A DNA stretch of 64,000 nt from an alpha proteobacterium BAL199 (GTDB lineage Bacteria > Pseudomonadota > Alphaproteobacteria > Thalassobaculales > Thalassobaculaceae). Shown here piece by piece: positions 3,380 through 44,496 of the stretch. The notes under the pieces were generated by a model. The model did no database searches and had not been told where the DNA came from. It saw only the letters and a list, made by a program, of their open reading frames with translations. Position numbers and translations under genes: made by a program. The DNA lies in assembly GCA_000171835.1 (NCBI GenBank), contig ABHC01000023.1, positions 1 through 64,000 on the forward strand, read 5' to 3'. Every line of letters begins with the position of its first letter. Within the stretch, counting starts at the first letter, position 1.

Positions 3380-3952
3380 TCACGGTTCCGGGGTGTGCAC
3401 AACCGAGGCGTCGGGCCCTGGCCGCAACTCGACGACAGTACCGTTACCGACCGCAAGGCCGGTCAGGCCACGGATGAAACCCCAATGGCTGACATAGACC
3501 GTCTCGCCCCAGTCGGTCGCGCGATGCATCCGGCTGGCAAACACGCCGCACCGACCTGACAACTGGGCCTCGGACTCGCCGTTCGCGGGCCACCAGCGCT
3601 CGCCCAGCCGATCGAAGTCGATCCCGGGCCACAGTTTCCGCAACTGCGACGTCGGGGTGCCGATGTCGCAGGCGAACCAGCAGCGTTCGCGCACCAGGGA
3701 GTCGATCTCGATCGGCAGGCCAAGCGCATCGGCGACAATCGCTGCGGTTTCCAGGGTGCGCCGGTACGGGCTGGCGACGATGCGGGTCAGTCCACGCGGG
3801 GCCAAGGCTGCCGCCGCCGCGCCGGCCTGCGCGCGGCCAAGGTCGGTCAATGCCGGATCCTCGATGCCGGGATCGATCCGGGTCTTGGAGAAATGGACGT
3901 TGAACTCGCTCTGGCCGTGGCGCAGCAGGTACATCGGGTCAGCGTCTCTCAT
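3380..3952 (-). CDS. Histidine phosphatase (phosphoglycerate mutase superfamily)
   Basis: A member of the two-histidine phosphatase clan. The phosphorylated histidine is in LLRHGQSEF (His12), the supporting residues are in SPYRRTLETA (Arg64) and RERCWF (Glu89), and the second catalytic histidine is in VYVSHWGFIRG (His156). Length is 190 residues, typical for a single-domain phosphatase rather than a glycolytic mutase. The start could instead be the ATG giving MYLLRHGQ at 3934. It overlaps fxsA by 14 bp, so both are likely on one transcript. The substrate cannot be read from the sequence. Confidence 0.88.
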   Translation of the reverse strand: MRDADPMYLLRHGQSEFNVHFSKTRIDPGIEDPALTDLGRAQAGAAAAALAPRGLTRIVASPYRRTLETAAIVADALGLPIEIDSLVRERCWFACDIGTPTSQLRKLWPGIDFDRLGERWWPANGESEAQLSGRCGVFASRMHRATDWGETVYVSHWGFIRGLTGLAVGNGTVVELRPGPDASVVHTPEP

Positions 3953-4433
3953 CGTCCAGTTGTTTGGGATCGGGCTCGGGCACTTCCTCGAAATCGCCGT
4001 CGATCACCGGGCCCGAACTGTTCCGCGTCGGCCGTCCACCGGCGGGTGATCGCGACGCCCAGATCCGGGTGCCGCCCCGCGCCATCGCCCAGGCCAGGAT
4101 GGCGCCGATCAGCAGCCGGCGGACCGGGGGAATGAACAGGATGAATCCGAGAGTGTCGGTCAGAAATCCAGGGATCAGCAGCAGCAGGCCCGCCACCAGC
4201 AGACCGAGCCCTGACAGCAGCTCGCCGACCGGGGTCTCGCCGCGATCCAGGTGCTCCTGGACCCGGGCGAGGGTGGCCATGCCCTGGACCCGGAACAGCA
4301 GAACTCCGAAACCGGCGGTCGCCAAAATCAACGCAACGGTCGGCAACGCCCCGATGTCGCTGCCGATCTCGATCATCAGCCAGATTTCGACGACCGGCAG
4401 ACCGAGGATGACCAGTAAAACCAGGAAGCCCAT
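3939..4433 (-). CDS. fxsA: FxsA family membrane protein
   Basis: Small inner-membrane protein; in Escherichia coli overproduction of FxsA relieves F-plasmid exclusion of phage T7, but its cellular role is unknown. The sequence shows three or four hydrophobic segments: residues 2-22 (LVLLVILGLPVVEIWLMIEI), about 28-48, and 75-115 (GLLVAGLLLLIPGFLTDTLGF), the last with the family signature IPGFLTDTLG. The C-terminal 45 residues are polar. AAGGG precedes the ATG. It precedes the histidine phosphatase gene in a two-gene unit and is divergent from timA. Confidence 0.92.
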   Translation of the reverse strand: MGFLVLLVILGLPVVEIWLMIEIGSDIGALPTVALILATAGFGVLLFRVQGMATLARVQEHLDRGETPVGELLSGLGLLVAGLLLLIPGFLTDTLGFILFIPPVRRLLIGAILAWAMARGGTRIWASRSPAGGRPTRNSSGPVIDGDFEEVPEPDPKQLDDERR

Positions 4434-4573
4434 GCTTGCCCTTCTGAAGTTCAGGCCCTATCTAGAACGACACGTCCGAAGACCGCTCCGGCGCCGTGTT
4501 CGTCTGACGGCGGGTCGCCGGTAACGGGGGCCACTCTAACCGTGGGGGCGCAGCCCGGTCCAGGCGTGGCGCC

Positions 4574-5263
4574 GTGATCAGAATAGGCAACAGTGTGCCG
4601 TATCTCGACATCATTCTCCTGGCGATGCTCGCCGGCTTCGTGATCTTCAAGCTGCGCAGCGTGCTGGGCCGGCGTACCGGGCACGAGCGGCGGCCGACCG
4701 ACCCGTTCGCCGAATCTCCCGAGACCAATGACAACGGCAACATCGTGCGCCTGCCGGATCGTTCGGCCGAGAGTGTCGATGGGAGCGATGACGACGTTCC
4801 GGGCAGCTCGATGGCTGCCGGGATCATGCAGATCAAGCTGGCCGATGACGGGTTCGACGAGCGACAGTTCCTGCAGGGCGCCAAATCGGCTTTCGCGATG
4901 ATTGTCGAGGCCTTCGCCAAGGGCGATGTCGACGGACTGCGCCCTTTGCTGTCGCGCGAGCTTTACGGCGGCTTCGCTTCGGCCATCGAGGCCTGCGAGA
5001 AAGCCGGCGAGATCCAGGAAACCACCATCGTCACCATCCGTTCGGCCGATGTGGTCGAGGCCTCTCTGGAAAACAGTGTTGCGAAGGTCACGGTCGAGTT
5101 CGTCACCGAGCAGGTGAAGGTCACGCGCAGTTCTGACGGCGAGGTCATCGACGGCGATCCCGACCGGATCGACATCCTGACCGACATCTGGACCTTCGCG
5201 CGCGACATCGGCAACCGGGACCCGAACTGGGAGCTGGTCGCAACCCGTGTTCCCGAAGACTAA
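4574..5263 (+). CDS. timA: Tim44/TimA-family membrane-anchored protein
   Basis: Bacterial homologue of mitochondrial Tim44. One membrane anchor (LDIILLAMLAGFVIFKL, about residues 9-27) is followed by a family-typical RSVLGRRTGHERRP, a polar linker, and the Tim44 domain from about residue 95 to the end (FLQGAKSAFAMIVEAFAKGD, then DIWTFARDIGNRDPNWELV). The start is GTG at 4574; a second GTG at 4595 would shorten the protein by seven residues. It overlaps mltA by 17 bp. The location between fxsA and mltA is a conserved alphaproteobacterial arrangement, and a role at the membrane in protein handling is inferred from the family only. Confidence 0.88.
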   Translation: MIRIGNSVPYLDIILLAMLAGFVIFKLRSVLGRRTGHERRPTDPFAESPETNDNGNIVRLPDRSAESVDGSDDDVPGSSMAAGIMQIKLADDGFDERQFLQGAKSAFAMIVEAFAKGDVDGLRPLLSRELYGGFASAIEACEKAGEIQETTIVTIRSADVVEASLENSVAKVTVEFVTEQVKVTRSSDGEVIDGDPDRIDILTDIWTFARDIGNRDPNWELVATRVPED

Positions 5264-6470
5264 GCCGCACCGCGTCCGTGGCAGCGCCAGCCGCGCCCTT
5301 GCGCTGCTGTTGCTTGCCGGTCTGGCTCTGAGCGGCTGCGGACGCGAGCCGAAGCCTACCCCCGACGCTGATGAACGCCTGATCCTGCAACCGGCCACGG
5401 TCGGCGATCTGCCGGGATGGGCGAGCGACGATCCACGTTCGGCGCTGGCCGCGTTCCGGCGTTCCTGCGCGCCCTTGCTGCGCGGTGACCAGACCAGGGC
5501 GGTGGGACCCGACGGGCGGTTCGGCACCCGTGCGGACTGGGCCCCGGCTTGCCGTGCGGCGTCAGCGATTGATGCCGGCAGTGCCGACGCGGTCCGCCGG
5601 TTCTTCGCCGACAATTTTACCGTCTGGCGGGCCAGCGACGACAAGCCGGACGACGATGTGTTCACCGGTTACTTCGAGCCCGAACTGGCGGGTTCCCGCG
5701 TCAAGTCACCGGCTTATCCGGTAACGCTGTACAAGCGGCCACCCGACCTTATCGACGTCGACCTGGGCGCGTTCCGCGAGGCGCTGAAAGGCGAACGCAT
5801 TGCCGGCCGGGTAAAGGACGGCAAGCTGGTTCCCTACGACGACCGCGCCGCCATCGACAGCGGCGCCCTGGCGGCCAAGGCCGACCCGCTGCTGTATCTC
5901 GCTGACCCAATTGACGCGTTCTTCCTGCACATCCAGGGCTCCGGTCTGGTGGTGCTGCCAGACGGAACCCGGACCCGGGTCGGCTACGATGGCGCCAACG
6001 GCCATGTGTACTATGCGGTCGGGCGGTGGCTGATCGCAGAGGGCGAGGTTCCGAAGGAGAAGATGTCCCTGCAGGCGATCCGTGACTGGATGACGGCCAA
6101 TCCCGGCCGTCGCCAGGAGCTGATCAACCGCAACCCGTCCTACGTGTTCTTCCGCCAGCTCACCGGCGATGGCCCGGTCGGCGCCCAGGGCGTGACGCTG
6201 ACCGCCGGCCGCAGCCTGGCGGTCGATCGCCGGCATTTGCCGCTCGGCGCGCCGATGTGGATCGACGTCGCATACCCGACCGATAGTGGCTCTGAGTTGC
6301 GGCGGTTGATGATCACCCAGGACACTGGCGGCGCCATTCGCGGCCCGGTCCGGGCCGACGTGTTCTGGGGTTCCGGTAAGCCGGCCGAGACATTGGCAGG
6401 CCCGATGGCGGCCAAGGGACGCTACTGGTTGCTGCTGCCGAAAGGGCTGGATCCGCGCAAGGATGGGTGA
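5247..6470 (+). CDS. mltA: Membrane-bound lytic murein transglycosylase A (lipoprotein)
   Basis: Cleaves the MurNAc-GlcNAc bond of peptidoglycan with anhydro-muropeptide formation. The N-terminus has a hydrophobic signal (about residues 16-29) and a lipobox LSGC with the acylated Cys at 31. The MltA domain follows, and the C-terminal 3D domain with its aspartates is visible near residues 350-375 (ITQDTGGAI, RADVFWGSG). Length of 407 residues fits the family. The start is a GTG within the end of timA, with GGGAG about 13 nt upstream. Its products feed the AmpG import and recycling route, for which genes lie near 42 kb. Confidence 0.94.
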   Translation: MFPKTKPHRVRGSASRALALLLLAGLALSGCGREPKPTPDADERLILQPATVGDLPGWASDDPRSALAAFRRSCAPLLRGDQTRAVGPDGRFGTRADWAPACRAASAIDAGSADAVRRFFADNFTVWRASDDKPDDDVFTGYFEPELAGSRVKSPAYPVTLYKRPPDLIDVDLGAFREALKGERIAGRVKDGKLVPYDDRAAIDSGALAAKADPLLYLADPIDAFFLHIQGSGLVVLPDGTRTRVGYDGANGHVYYAVGRWLIAEGEVPKEKMSLQAIRDWMTANPGRRQELINRNPSYVFFRQLTGDGPVGAQGVTLTAGRSLAVDRRHLPLGAPMWIDVAYPTDSGSELRRLMITQDTGGAIRGPVRADVFWGSGKPAETLAGPMAAKGRYWLLLPKGLDPRKDG

Positions 6471-40272: not shown

Positions 40273-41262
40273 ATGCCCAAGAGTTTGGATGTCGTGGCGA
40301 TCGGCAACGCCATCGTTGATGTGATCGCCCGGATCGACGAGGCGTTTCTGACGACCCACGGAGTCGAGCGCGGCGCCATGACGCTGATCGATGCCGAGCG
40401 CGCGCAGTCGCTGTACGCCGCCATGCCGCCGGGGGTCGAGGTGTCGGGCGGTTCGGCCGGCAACACCGCCGCCGGGCTGGCGGCGCTCGGTGGCCGCGCC
40501 GGCTATGTCGGCAAGGTCCGCGACGATGTCCTCGGCCAAGTGTTCAGTCACGACATCACCGCCCAGGGCGTGCGCTTCGATACGGCTCCGGCCATGGACG
40601 GCCCGCCGACCGCGCGCTGCCTGGTGCTGGTGACGCCGGACGCGCAGCGCTCGATGAACACCTATCTCGGCGCCTGCGTGAACCTGACGCCGGAAGACGT
40701 CGATCCGGCGGCGATCTCCGAGGCCCAGGTGGTCTATCTCGAGGGCTATCTCTGGGATCCGCCGCAGGCCAAGGAGGCCTTCCTGAAGGCGGCCAAGATC
40801 GCCCATGAGTCCGGCGGCAAGGTCGCGCTGAGCCTGTCCGATCCGTTCTGCGTCGGCCGCCACCGCGCGGAGTTCCTGGAGCTGGTGCGGCACCACGTCG
40901 ACATCCTGTTCGCCAACGAGCAGGAGATCGTCTCGCTGTTCGAGGCCAAGGATTTCGACGAAGCCCTGCAGAAGGTCCGCTTCGAGGTCGAGACCGCGGC
41001 CCTGACCCGCAGCGAGCGCGGTTCGGTCGTCGTACACCGCGACGAGGTCCATATTCTCGATGCCGAGAAGGCGACGCGGGTGGTCGATACCACCGGAGCC
41101 GGCGACCTGTATGCCGCCGGCTTCCTGTACGGCTACACCCAGGGCAAGGATGCCGCGACCTGCGGGCGGCTGGGCGGGCTGTGCGCCGCCGAGATCATCT
41201 CGCACATCGGCGCCCGCCCCGAGGTGGACCTGAAGAAGCTGGTCGCGACGCAGCTAGGTTGA
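40273..41262 (+). CDS. PfkB-family carbohydrate/adenosine kinase
   Basis: A ribokinase-fold kinase of 329 residues related to the adenosine-kinase type seen in alphaproteobacteria. The PfkB N-terminal signature is GGSAGNTAAGLAALGGRAGY near 60-80, and the C-terminal one is VVDTTGAGDLYAAGFLYGY near 274-292, with the anion-hole DTTGAGD and catalytic Asp. YVGKVRDDVLG, LGACVNLTPEDVD and ANEQEIVSLFE are conserved in the group. GGAGTG precedes the ATG. It overlaps the convergent ampG stop by 9 bp. Confidence 0.9.
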   Translation: MPKSLDVVAIGNAIVDVIARIDEAFLTTHGVERGAMTLIDAERAQSLYAAMPPGVEVSGGSAGNTAAGLAALGGRAGYVGKVRDDVLGQVFSHDITAQGVRFDTAPAMDGPPTARCLVLVTPDAQRSMNTYLGACVNLTPEDVDPAAISEAQVVYLEGYLWDPPQAKEAFLKAAKIAHESGGKVALSLSDPFCVGRHRAEFLELVRHHVDILFANEQEIVSLFEAKDFDEALQKVRFEVETAALTRSERGSVVVHRDEVHILDAEKATRVVDTTGAGDLYAAGFLYGYTQGKDAATCGRLGGLCAAEIISHIGARPEVDLKKLVATQLG

Positions 41263-42588
41263 TTCTGAGCTTTGTTTGCTCTCATGCCGCTCAGGCATGA
41301 CGATCATCAAGATCAGCAGCAACGGAAGTCCCAGAAGGGCCAGCCCGGCGGTGATAGCGAAAAACAGCGCCCAGTCACCGCCGAGTTGATCCACTACGAT
41401 GCCGGCCGACGACGCGAACCAGATGCGGGCGAGGTTTCCGAGCGAGTTCAACAGAGCGTATTGGGTAGCCGAGAAAGCGGCATTGCAGAGGCTGGAGAGA
41501 TAAGCAACGAATGCAACGGTGGCCAAGCCGCTGGTGAAATTGTCTGCGATGACGGCGACGGCGAATACGCTCAGGTCCTGACCGGCCGTGGCGAGGTAGG
41601 CGTAGATTAGGTTGGTTGCCGCTGCGGCCAGACCGCCAGCCAGCAGGCTGCGAAATGTACCAATTAGTTTCACCAATGCGCCTCCGGCGAGCACACCGAT
41701 GCAGATCGCTGCAAGTCCGAAAACCTTCGTTATGTCGGCGATCTCGGTCAGCGAGAACCCGAGCTCTCGATAGAACACGCCGGACATGCGTCCCAACAGC
41801 GCGTCTCCAAACTTGAAGACGAAGACGAAAACCAGGATCAATAGCCACCAGTCACGGCGTATGAAATCGGTAAACGGATCGATCAGCGCATTTCGAAGCC
41901 AAATGACGATGCTAACGGTGCCCGACTCCGGCACCTGGGAAGCATCGAAGTCTGCGGCGCTGCCGCGTGTAGGTTCGGGTGCAGCGAGGGTTGCGATCGC
42001 CGCTACGAGTAACGTCCCGGCCAGGATCTGGTAAGTTGCGTTCCAGCCCAACGTATCAGCTAGATAGAGACCTCCGGCACCGCCGACCAAGGTGCCGCCG
42101 ATGTGCCATCCCCAGATCGCTACTGCCGATCCTGCTCCGTATTCGTCGCGCTCCAGCACATCGACTCGATAGGCGTCGATTACGATGTCCTGGGTTGCCG
42201 AAAGGAACGCGACGAACACACATGCGAGCGCGACCTGTGCCACATTTTCGTTCGGGTCGGTCATTCCCATCAACGCGATTGCTATCATTAGCAGTATTTG
42301 TGTGACGAGGGCCCAGCTCCTGCGGCGACCGAGCCAATTCGTGAGAAACGGCAACCGCAGTCTGTCGATCAGCGGCGCCCAAAGGAAGTTCAGGGCGTAA
42401 GCGCTGGTCGCAAGGCCGAACAGCCCTACATTCGACCGAGTGAATCCGGCATCGGTGAGCCAGATCGACAGGTTGGAATACACTAGTGGAGCGGGCAGGC
42501 CCGAGGCGAAGCCGAAGATCAGGATGATCAACATTCGGCGTTGAAAATATACGCGGAAGCCGTCAGTCCAAGATGCGTTGATCGCCAT
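41254..42588 (-). CDS. ampG: AmpG-like muropeptide permease (MFS), atypical composition
   Basis: A 444-residue major-facilitator permease of the AmpG type, which imports anhydro-muropeptides for recycling. The start MAINASWTDGFRVYFQRRM leads to 12-14 membrane segments; FGFASGLPAPLVYSNLSIWL (TM1), GLFGLATSAYALNFLWAPLI and the conserved ATQDIVIDAYRVDVL near 155 are typical. Sampled 60-base lines at 41641, 41821 and 42241 have 32, 29 and 28 G+C, against 39 in a kinase line at 40681. No good ribosome site precedes ATG 42588; a TTG at 42630 is unlikely. Its 5' end meets a remnant of another ampG. Confidence 0.88.
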   Translation of the reverse strand: MAINASWTDGFRVYFQRRMLIILIFGFASGLPAPLVYSNLSIWLTDAGFTRSNVGLFGLATSAYALNFLWAPLIDRLRLPFLTNWLGRRRSWALVTQILLMIAIALMGMTDPNENVAQVALACVFVAFLSATQDIVIDAYRVDVLERDEYGAGSAVAIWGWHIGGTLVGGAGGLYLADTLGWNATYQILAGTLLVAAIATLAAPEPTRGSAADFDASQVPESGTVSIVIWLRNALIDPFTDFIRRDWWLLILVFVFVFKFGDALLGRMSGVFYRELGFSLTEIADITKVFGLAAICIGVLAGGALVKLIGTFRSLLAGGLAAAATNLIYAYLATAGQDLSVFAVAVIADNFTSGLATVAFVAYLSSLCNAAFSATQYALLNSLGNLARIWFASSAGIVVDQLGGDWALFFAITAGLALLGLPLLLILMIVMPERHESKQSSEST

Positions 42589-42940
42589 GGCCAAGGCGTA
42601 TCTGAGTCGGTTCGGCTTGCCCAGTGACAAAAGTCACGGGATGCTGATCGTCACCATCGGCGTCGAGAACGCCACCGGCGGCATGGGAACCGCGGCCTTC
42701 ATCGCCTACCTGTCTCGACTGACCAACGTCGCCTTCACCGCCACGCAGTACGCGCTGCTGAGCTCGTTCATGGTGTTCGGCCGCACCGTCCTGGCATCGC
42801 CGTCCGGCTGGGCGGCCGACCATCTGGGGTGGGTCGAGTTCTTCATCGCCTCGACCGTGATCGCGGTGCCGGGGCTGCTGCTGCTGCTGGTGCTGATGCG
42901 GCTGTTCCCGCCGAAAGCCGTCGCCGAGAAGCCGGCATGA
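42588..42940 (+). pseudogene. C-terminal remnant of a second AmpG permease
   Basis: The reading frame gives AYLSRFGLPSDKSHGMLIVT, VENATGGMGTAAFIAYLSRL and NVAFTATQYALLSSFMVFGR, which align residue by residue with the last third of the neighbouring ampG (VAFVAYLSSL, NAAFSATQYALLNSLGNLAR). It holds about 115 residues covering the last membrane segments and ends MRLFPPKAVAEKPA. No N-terminal part exists: the plus-strand homology stops at the place where the minus-strand ampG begins. An internal ATG at 42641 could allow a short peptide, but it would lack a substrate path. GC content is as in the chromosome at large. Confidence 0.8.
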
Positions 42941-43040
42941 GCGGCGTGGACGATCGCCCCGTTGCTGCGGAGCCGGTGCGATAACGGCGGCGTTCGCCAT
43001 CTACGGGCGACTACTTGCCGAGTTCCCGGCTGAGGTCGGG

Positions 43041-43739
43041 TCAAGCTAGCGCGCCGGCGGCGTCGAGGGCGTAGCCGGCCGAGCGGACCGTGCGGATGAC
43101 GTCGTCGTCCTGCTCGGCGTTCAGCGCCTTGCGCAGACGGCGGATGTGCACGTCGACGGTCCGCGGCTCGACGTAGACGTCAGGCCCCCACACGGTGTCG
43201 AGCAGCTGTTCGCGCGAGAACACCCGGCCAGGGTGCTCCAGGAAATGCCGCAGCAGGCGGAACTCGGTCGGCCCCAGATGGATGTCGCGCTCGCTGCGTT
43301 TCACCCGGTGGGCCGCCAGGTCCATGTGCAGGTCGCCGTAGTGCAGCATCTCGTCCTCGGTCGACGGGCGGGCCCGGCGTAATACGGCGCGGACCCGGGC
43401 GATCAGTTCCGACGGGCTGAACGGCTTGGTGACGTAGTCGTCTGCACCGGAGTTCAGGCCGCGGATCCGGTCGCCCTCCTCGCCGCGTGCCGTCAGCATG
43501 ATGATCGGCACGTTCTTGGTGTCGGGCACCCGGCGCAGGCGGCGGCAGACCTCGATGCCGGACAGCAGCGGCAGCATCCAGTCGAGCAGGATCAGGTCGG
43601 GCTTGCGCTCGGCGGCGACCAGCAGGGCCTCCTCGCCGTCGCCGGCATCGGCCACCCGGAAGCCCTCGCGCTCCAGGTTGTAGCGCAGCAGCGTGACGAT
43701 CGGGGCTTCGTCCTCGACGATCAGAATCAACGGTTTCAT
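43041..43739 (-). CDS. phoB: Phosphate regulon response regulator PhoB
   Basis: OmpR-type response regulator (232 residues) that binds Pho boxes when phosphorylated by PhoR. The receiver domain starts MKPLILIVEDEAPIVTLLRY with the phosphoacceptor in LLDWMLPLLSG (Asp53) and the switch Lys in YVTKPFSPSEL. The winged helix is clear near 150-225 (LGPTEFRLLRHFLEHPGRV, EPRTVDVHIRRLRKAL). ATG 43739 has GAGG 9 nt upstream; ATGs at 43745 and 43748 are in frame. It is the last gene of phoR-pstSCAB-phoU-phoB. Confidence 0.96.
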   Translation of the reverse strand: MKPLILIVEDEAPIVTLLRYNLEREGFRVADAGDGEEALLVAAERKPDLILLDWMLPLLSGIEVCRRLRRVPDTKNVPIIMLTARGEEGDRIRGLNSGADDYVTKPFSPSELIARVRAVLRRARPSTEDEMLHYGDLHMDLAAHRVKRSERDIHLGPTEFRLLRHFLEHPGRVFSREQLLDTVWGPDVYVEPRTVDVHIRRLRKALNAEQDDDVIRTVRSAGYALDAAGALA

Positions 43740-43767
43740 GGTCATCATCCTCGCGGGCGCAACGTCA

Positions 43768-44496
43768 TCAAGGTGCCGCATCGGGCTCCGGCGGCTCGAC
43801 GACCGCGTAGCTGGTGCGGTCGCCCTTGGGCCGCAGCCCCTCTAGGCGGGTGCCCATTTCCTGGAAGTACACGGTCTCGGCGATGTTGGTGGCGTGGTCG
43901 CCAATCCGCTCGATGTTCTTGGCGACGAACAGCAGATGCGCGCACGGCGTGATGTTGCGCGGATCCTCCATCATGTAGGTCAGCAGCTCGCGGAACAGGC
44001 TGGTGTACATCTGGTCGATTTCCTGGTCCCGGTTCCAGGCCGCGACCGCCTTGTCGACGTTCGGCTCGGAGTAGGAATCCAGGACATCCTTGATCACCGA
44101 GTGGGTTAGGCGGCCCATCCGCACGATGCCGTTGATCGGCCCGACCTCCGGCAATTGGGCGAGCGCCGAGGCGCGCTTGGCGACGTTGGTCGCGTAGTCG
44201 CCCATGCGCTCCAGGTCGTGGGCGATCTTCAGGGCGGCCAGGATCGCCCGCAGGTCGAGGGCCACCGGCTGCCGCAGCGCCAGCATCCGCAGGGTCAGAG
44301 CCTCGATCTTGTCCTCCATGGCGTCGATCTCGGCGTCGGCCTCCTGGCAGCGCCTGGCGAGCGCATCGTCGCGCCGGCCGATGGCGGCGATGGCGTTCGC
44401 CATCTGCTGCTCGACCAGCCCGCCCATCTGCGCGATGACCGCGCGCATTTCGTCCAGTTCTTCGTCGAACTGCCGGACGATGTGTTGATCCACCAT
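43768..44496 (-). CDS. phoU: Phosphate transport regulator PhoU
   Basis: Links the PstSCAB transporter to the PhoR kinase and restrains the regulon when phosphate is plentiful. The 242-residue protein has two PhoU helix bundles: QFDEELDEMRAVIAQMGGLVEQQ near 9-31 and KIAHDLERMGDYATNVAKRA near 92-111 in the first, FVAKNIERIGDHATNIAETV near 195-214 in the second, each with the metal-binding E-R-x-x-D pattern. AGGA lies 8 nt before the ATG. The open frame continues upstream but is not PhoU. It lies between pstB and phoB. Confidence 0.96.
   Translation of the reverse strand: MVDQHIVRQFDEELDEMRAVIAQMGGLVEQQMANAIAAIGRRDDALARRCQEADAEIDAMEDKIEALTLRMLALRQPVALDLRAILAALKIAHDLERMGDYATNVAKRASALAQLPEVGPINGIVRMGRLTHSVIKDVLDSYSEPNVDKAVAAWNRDQEIDQMYTSLFRELLTYMMEDPRNITPCAHLLFVAKNIERIGDHATNIAETVYFQEMGTRLEGLRPKGDRTSYAVVEPPEPDAAP

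Follow-up and report, generated by a model that had tools for sequence, protein, structure and literature searches.

Results

An inverted ampG has probably displaced the native gene in place

The native ampG gene of the alphaproteobacterium BAL199 has undergone xenologous displacement in situ, probably by one-sided homologous recombination. The evidence comes from the window, the 64,000-nt stretch of contig ABHC01000023.1 (positions 1 to 64,000, forward strand) that was analyzed. A complete ampG on the minus strand occupies the interval between a kinase gene and phoB, and the last quarter of a second ampG lies next to it on the plus strand. The parts of the locus are as follows.

40273-41262, plus strand: PfkB-family carbohydrate kinase, native left flank (PF00294; congener-type informative sites)
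41254-42588, minus strand: complete ampG (type B), 444 aa, apparently imported (TIGR00901, tree, GC, dS)
42589-42624, minus strand: apparent donor sequence upstream of the imported ampG, which holds a block conserved in Thalassobaculum (upstream alignments)
42625-42640, no strand: right-hand junction zone, between the end of the Thalassobaculum upstream match and the start of the native ampG match
42641-42940, plus strand: native ampG (type A) remnant, last 99 codons with the original stop (identity to G001, TIGR00901)
42937-43026, plus strand: probable head and tail scraps of the native macrodomain gene (shuffle tests against G001)
43041-43781, minus strand: phoB, native right flank (TIGR02154, 357 bits; 90-92% amino acid identity to G002 and G001)

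The kinase and the complete ampG are arranged tail to tail and their ends overlap by 9 nt. The plus-strand open reading frame with the AmpG C-terminal end starts inside the 5' end of the complete gene and stops at 42940. An earlier note on this DNA had described both the complete minus-strand gene and the plus-strand C-terminal piece, and both are present in the orientations given there. A search of the 6.1-Mb genome returned exactly two AmpG matches, both at this locus.

The complete protein scored 466 bits against TIGR00901, the model for the AmpG family muropeptide MFS transporter (cut-off, 350 bits), and aligned with profile positions 1-416 of 417, as a full-length family member does. The remnant scored 112 bits (E = 1.8e-32) over positions 331-416 only and is a fragment. 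Two equivalog models scored the complete protein below their cut-offs (NF008867, 320 against 656 bits; NF008238, 305 against 756 bits). Although the family model recognizes the complete protein as well as the remnant, the two represent separate lineages, B and A, that are about 43-50% identical in the pairs compared and alternate at the locus. The sole complete AmpG that the genome now has is ampG-B, and it is presumably expressed and imports muropeptides.

A congener has the native gene order

The slot was compared across a family set of 36 genomes, the window's own included, 28 of which gave an AmpG match. Twenty-one loci, the window among them, could be oriented on the kinase, and some of these are cut by contig ends. 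The ampG that follows the kinase is on the plus strand (type A) in 13 of the 21 loci and on the minus strand (type B) in 8. The B loci are those of the window, G002, four Thalassobaculum genomes (group g12) and two g5 genomes, and all eight carry the gene inverted beside the kinase. An inverted ampG at this locus is thus found in three lineages besides the window (G002, g12 and g5), which the earlier note had not mentioned. That note called the incoming copy unrelated, a description that is not supported: the nearest known B kin lie in the same family and likewise carry the gene inverted next to this kinase.

The congener G001 has the order kinase (plus), ampG-A (plus, 446 aa), macrodomain gene (PF01661, plus) and phoB (minus). 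The resident ampG-A is therefore present at the locus in a close relative, and the single full plus-strand ampG predicted to follow the kinase in a relative is there. The two-copy layout, named in advance as a finding that would speak against replacement, was absent from the other 20 oriented family loci (tblastn, E 1e-5); only the window has both types.

Several further features of the relatives were noted, those of the intergenic gaps by eye. Noncoding, repeat-like DNA lies between the kinase and the inverted ampG-B of G002 (locus L063, about 2045-2445), and the corresponding gap in G026 (L067, about 2022-2771) holds about four similar, noncoding copies of a unit of about 200 bp. Some 2.2 kb separate the inverted ampG-B from phoB in G006 (L069, about 3385-5559), and this DNA seems to hold a gene for a sensor histidine kinase and one for a small exported protein. 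Two reduced genomes of 1.5 Mb filed in g12, G013 and G021, are without an AmpG match, and the RpoB branch of G013 is long.

The remnant is native and the junctions are sharply bounded

The remnant is 84% identical to the end of the G001 ampG over 99 codons (dN 0.097, dS 0.356), and these values are similar to those of the kinase in the same comparison (dN 0.092, dS 0.351). With a GC of 0.673 and a GC3 of 0.929, the remnant looks native, as the earlier note had judged. Measured on G001, about 343 of the 446 codons of the native gene are missing and about 103 are left. The piece is accordingly the last quarter of the gene with about 77% lost, not a C-terminal third with two thirds lost as had been estimated. 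The central claim that a native plus-strand ampG lost its front to an inverted copy is borne out by the G001 layout, the remnant identity and the separate B lineage.

The left boundary was located by informative sites in the kinase. At 92 sites where G001 and G002 agree and differ from Thalassobaculum, the window sides with the congeners at 72, with Thalassobaculum at 16 and with neither at 4. The last congener-supporting site is 41247, which places the boundary between donor and recipient DNA after that position, in the last codons of the kinase. The same site comparison revealed no donor-like tract in the kinase before 41247. A candidate donor patch at 40993-41172, where identity to the congeners dips, was rejected since G001 and G002 also dip there when compared with each other.

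The right boundary lies beyond the start codon of ampG-B. The 40 bases 5' of its ATG are identical to four Thalassobaculum upstream regions at 24-28 of 40 positions, and none of 1000 shuffles did as well in any of the four comparisons. The conserved block stops at 42624, 36 bp beyond the ATG, and native ampG-A homology begins at about 42641. The Thalassobaculum-like sequence indicates that about 36 bp of donor upstream DNA came along with the gene, so the junction does not fall at or near the start codon as the earlier note had it. The boundaries of the imported piece are fixed to within about 16 bp. A stop codon in the reading frame of the block in G034, seen by eye, makes the block likelier to be control DNA than coding sequence. 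A promoter and terminator scan of 42400-43300 returned nothing, including no sigma-70-like site. A perfect 5-bp inverted repeat (gtgac-aaaa-gtcac, 42624-42637) sits at the right-hand junction and may be a chance occurrence or a by-product of the join.

The macrodomain gene beside ampG carries a probable second scar

A macrodomain gene lies beside ampG-A in G001, G004, G016, G023 and G012. In the window the ampG stop and the macrodomain start still overlap in ATGA. Held at fixed position, the head of the gene matched at 25 of 45 nt, a score reached by 3 of 10000 shuffles; for the tail the best match, at the end of the gene, was 25 of 43 nt, reached by 7 of 500. Free local alignments of these scraps were not significant (397 of 1000 and 193 of 1000 shuffles as good). 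No macrodomain match (E 1e-5) was present in the window genome or in the other seven B genomes, although two of these have a completeness of just 87-88%. Read from these alignments, the native macrodomain gene next to ampG was probably deleted internally as well, a scar that the earlier note had missed.

This second scar bears on the order of events. Insertion of ampG-B between the kinase and an intact ampG-A, followed by a deletion that took the front of ampG-A and the middle of the macrodomain gene, would yield the same final anatomy. The macrodomain gene seems internally deleted, so the area probably saw at least one further deletion, and the kinase-like dN and dS of the remnant make its decay recent in either order. 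However, none of the 21 oriented loci carries both genes complete, and one anchored event accounts for the position of the left boundary at the kinase end. Such a two-step course is unlikely.

Base composition and synonymous divergence mark ampG-B as foreign

The GC of the window ampG-B is 0.581 and its GC3 is 0.694. Corresponding values are 0.684 and 0.891 for the kinase and 0.690 and 0.911 for phoB. The B genes of relatives resemble their own neighbours, with GC and GC3 of 0.707 and 0.951 in G002 and of 0.67-0.69 and 0.89-0.91 in Thalassobaculum. The computed 58.1% replaces the 47-53% G+C that the earlier note had read from sampled lines, a range that was not borne out. None of 47 consecutive 1335-bp segments of the window is as low in GC as ampG-B, and the lowest of them (0.587) lies mostly inside ampG-B itself. 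Among segments sampled from three other contigs, 21 of 245 are as low. A GC3 as low as that of ampG-B was found in 2 of 45 mechanically defined open reading frames of the window and in 30 of 208 sampled from the three other contigs. Composition by itself is moderate evidence of foreign origin. Elsewhere, a stretch of about 42% GC with a 2661-bp open reading frame was seen in locus L173 (G000:C59, about 14.7-17.9 kb) of a genome with a sampled mean of 64%, and may be an island.

GC as the sole proof of import was rejected on account of the equally low sampled segments, and synonymous divergence was used in addition. The NG86 dS between the window ampG-B and three Thalassobaculum genomes was 1.20-1.26, about twice the 0.45-0.69 measured for kinase, phoB and phoU in the same pairs. 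In control pairs of Thalassobaculum with G006, the dS of B (0.59-0.60) was close to that of the kinase (0.64-0.68). A faster flanking gene, termed ext, had dS values of 0.88 and 1.19 to two Thalassobaculum genomes, near the ampG-B value. NG86 dS is uncorrected for base composition and shows foreignness, not age. These sequence properties fit an evolution of ampG-B in a genome of lower GC, followed by a recent arrival here.

The step in composition at the junction is also what an assembly chimera of two organisms, joined at 42625-42640, would produce. Against this, the complete ampG stands between native flanks on both sides (the kinase up to 41247 on one, the remnant and phoB on the other), and the stated contamination of the assembly is 0.47%. 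Were ampG-B a contaminant, the genome would be left with no complete AmpG match, which also counts against a chimera. An artefact of this kind is hardly credible.

The AmpG phylogeny departs from that of the host

An AmpG tree of 46 rows was built from 24 of 53 extracted sequences, the 21 locus genes and the remnant; the run gave long-branch warnings, and its bootstrap support was close to convergence but not fully there. A branch with support of 98/99 separated all eight B rows from the 15 A rows. An Alcanivorax MAG, G193, three Ectothiorhodospiraceae MAGs and two g9 genomes also fall on the B side. The four Thalassobaculum rows form the sister group of the window B (100/99) and are its nearest by identity (76-77%), and g5 comes next (100/99). 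The remnant covers 22% of the tree columns and is not firmly placed, and its type A kinship rests on the identity to G001. The 37 top loci from the class and phylum searches all fit the A query best, at 50-60% identity, among the matches listed.

In the RpoB tree the host falls with G001 and G002 (100/100), G002 being nearest at only 84/57, and a tree of flanking genes agrees. The ampG now present thus branches away from the lineage of its host, on the Thalassobaculum side. The RpoB tree requires at least three changes of the A/B label; the flanking-gene tree requires three, two of them forced.

Ancient residence would account for B without a recent import. The ancestor of g1, g4, g5 and g12 would have carried A and B side by side, and differential loss would have followed. 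The order of the window, Thalassobaculum and g5 among B genes agrees with RpoB, and the distances between B proteins nearly fit vertical descent: the window B is 0.51-0.60 from Thalassobaculum, barely above the 0.45-0.48 of flanking proteins. These points are countered by the doubled dS of the window B with its equal control in Thalassobaculum-g5 pairs, and by its low GC3 among neighbours at 0.89-0.93. The G002 B is most identical to G193, of another alphaproteobacterial family (76.7%, against 63.8% to the window B), which makes a separate import at the slot likely elsewhere too; the G002/G193 branching order is weak in the AmpG tree (75/65). Long residence is very unlikely, and a recent import of ampG-B remains the preferred reading.

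Three members of one genus differ at this slot, with A in G001, a B resembling that of G193 in G002 and a low-GC, Thalassobaculum-like B in the window. The dN between the ampG-A of G005 (L068) and G001 is 0.335, whereas that of the kinase is only 0.16, a divergence hinting at another replacement at the same slot. It looks as if the slot was swapped more than once among the relatives. A broader reading would make the kinase-phoB interval a hot spot of AmpG exchange in which alleles replace one another repeatedly, B always inverted. The states in question would be the low-GC B of the window, the other-family-like B of G002, the ordinary B of Thalassobaculum and g5, the A of G001 and the diverged A of G005. 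This idea is tentative; if it is true, swapping may be favoured by selection of some sort, acting for instance on peptidoglycan recycling or beta-lactam sensing.

The donor appears to be an unsampled relative

No near-identical donor was found among the 36 family genomes, 385 class genomes (E 1e-80), 398 phylum genomes (E 1e-90) or a scan of the GTDB contig collection, which yielded nine loci. The class and phylum sets are samples, and a search by gene order gave the same 36 family genomes. The nearest B proteins outside the family are those of G193 (about 60%) and the Alcanivorax MAG (59%). A plasmid source was rejected after a tblastn search of 72,556 plasmid records with the B protein, in which none of the 103 matching records reached 60% identity and the highest value among the ten matches listed was 45%.

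Discussion

The anatomy of the locus is best accommodated by one import, which we regard as reasonably likely. The ancestral locus would have had the kinase, ampG-A and macrodomain gene on the plus strand and phoB on the minus strand, as in G001. The donor fragment, from an unsampled lower-GC relative in the same family or a close sister, would have carried the kinase on the plus strand and ampG-B on the minus strand. Such a donor with kinase homology is expected, given that all eight oriented B loci are inverted beside the kinase, and the newcomer would be inverted because the donor layout was. At one end, homology to the 3' end of the kinase gene would have provided the anchor; at the other, the fragment would have been joined illegitimately within ampG-A, replacing most of that gene. 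The locus would have gained about 1.37 kb (ampG-B with about 36 bp of upstream sequence) in exchange for about 1.04 kb, made up of the start and the first 77% of ampG-A. What is left of ampG-A and of the macrodomain gene would be debris, although the timing of the macrodomain loss is conjectural.

Trees are often the only grounds for concluding that a foreign orthologue has taken the place of a gene. At this locus one can see the donor boundary, the debris of the recipient gene and a congener without the change, and the event can therefore be followed almost to the base. Processes of this kind are known, but the scar is unusually readable. The locus suggests that a single-copy transporter for cell-wall recycling can be swapped repeatedly between lineages, and inverted. 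It offers a convenient test case for one-sided recombination in the replacement of core genes. Open-licence PMC texts yielded no earlier report of horizontal ampG displacement or of a Thalassobaculum ampG.

The term xenologous gene displacement in situ is taken from PMC1274311, which cites Omelchenko et al. 2003. It denotes the substitution of an ancestral gene by an orthologue gained through horizontal transfer, which in BAL199 sits at the chromosomal position of the old gene. The present case differs in that the newcomer is inverted and the last quarter of the old gene is left, a visible scar beyond the tree.

Homology-facilitated illegitimate recombination (HFIR), as described in PMC3240628, couples inserts of about 1 kb to deletions of about 1 kb, with homology at one end of the insert and 3-10 bp of microhomology at the illegitimate join. 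The BAL199 locus shares an illegitimate join at one end and an insert and deletion of comparable size, and may share the homology at the other end. A non-homologous join does lie inside ampG-A at 42625-42640, and the corresponding DNA of the G001 layout is missing. The B loci of relatives share the adjoining kinase, yet the window shows no donor-like kinase tract before 41247; HFIR is here inferred from anatomy. That source puts the measured frequency of HFIR at one hundredth to one millionth of that of homologous recombination, a rarity that counts against the one-step explanation.

The T6SS effector genes of Vibrio cholerae, as presented in PMC5361080, offer a parallel in pattern: recurrent replacement in one slot, an anchor on one side and left-over pieces. 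The authors of that study proposed HFIR for the displacement of those effectors. The Vibrio cholerae case involves effector-immunity modules and orphan immunity genes, whereas the BAL199 locus involves a single inverted transporter gene.
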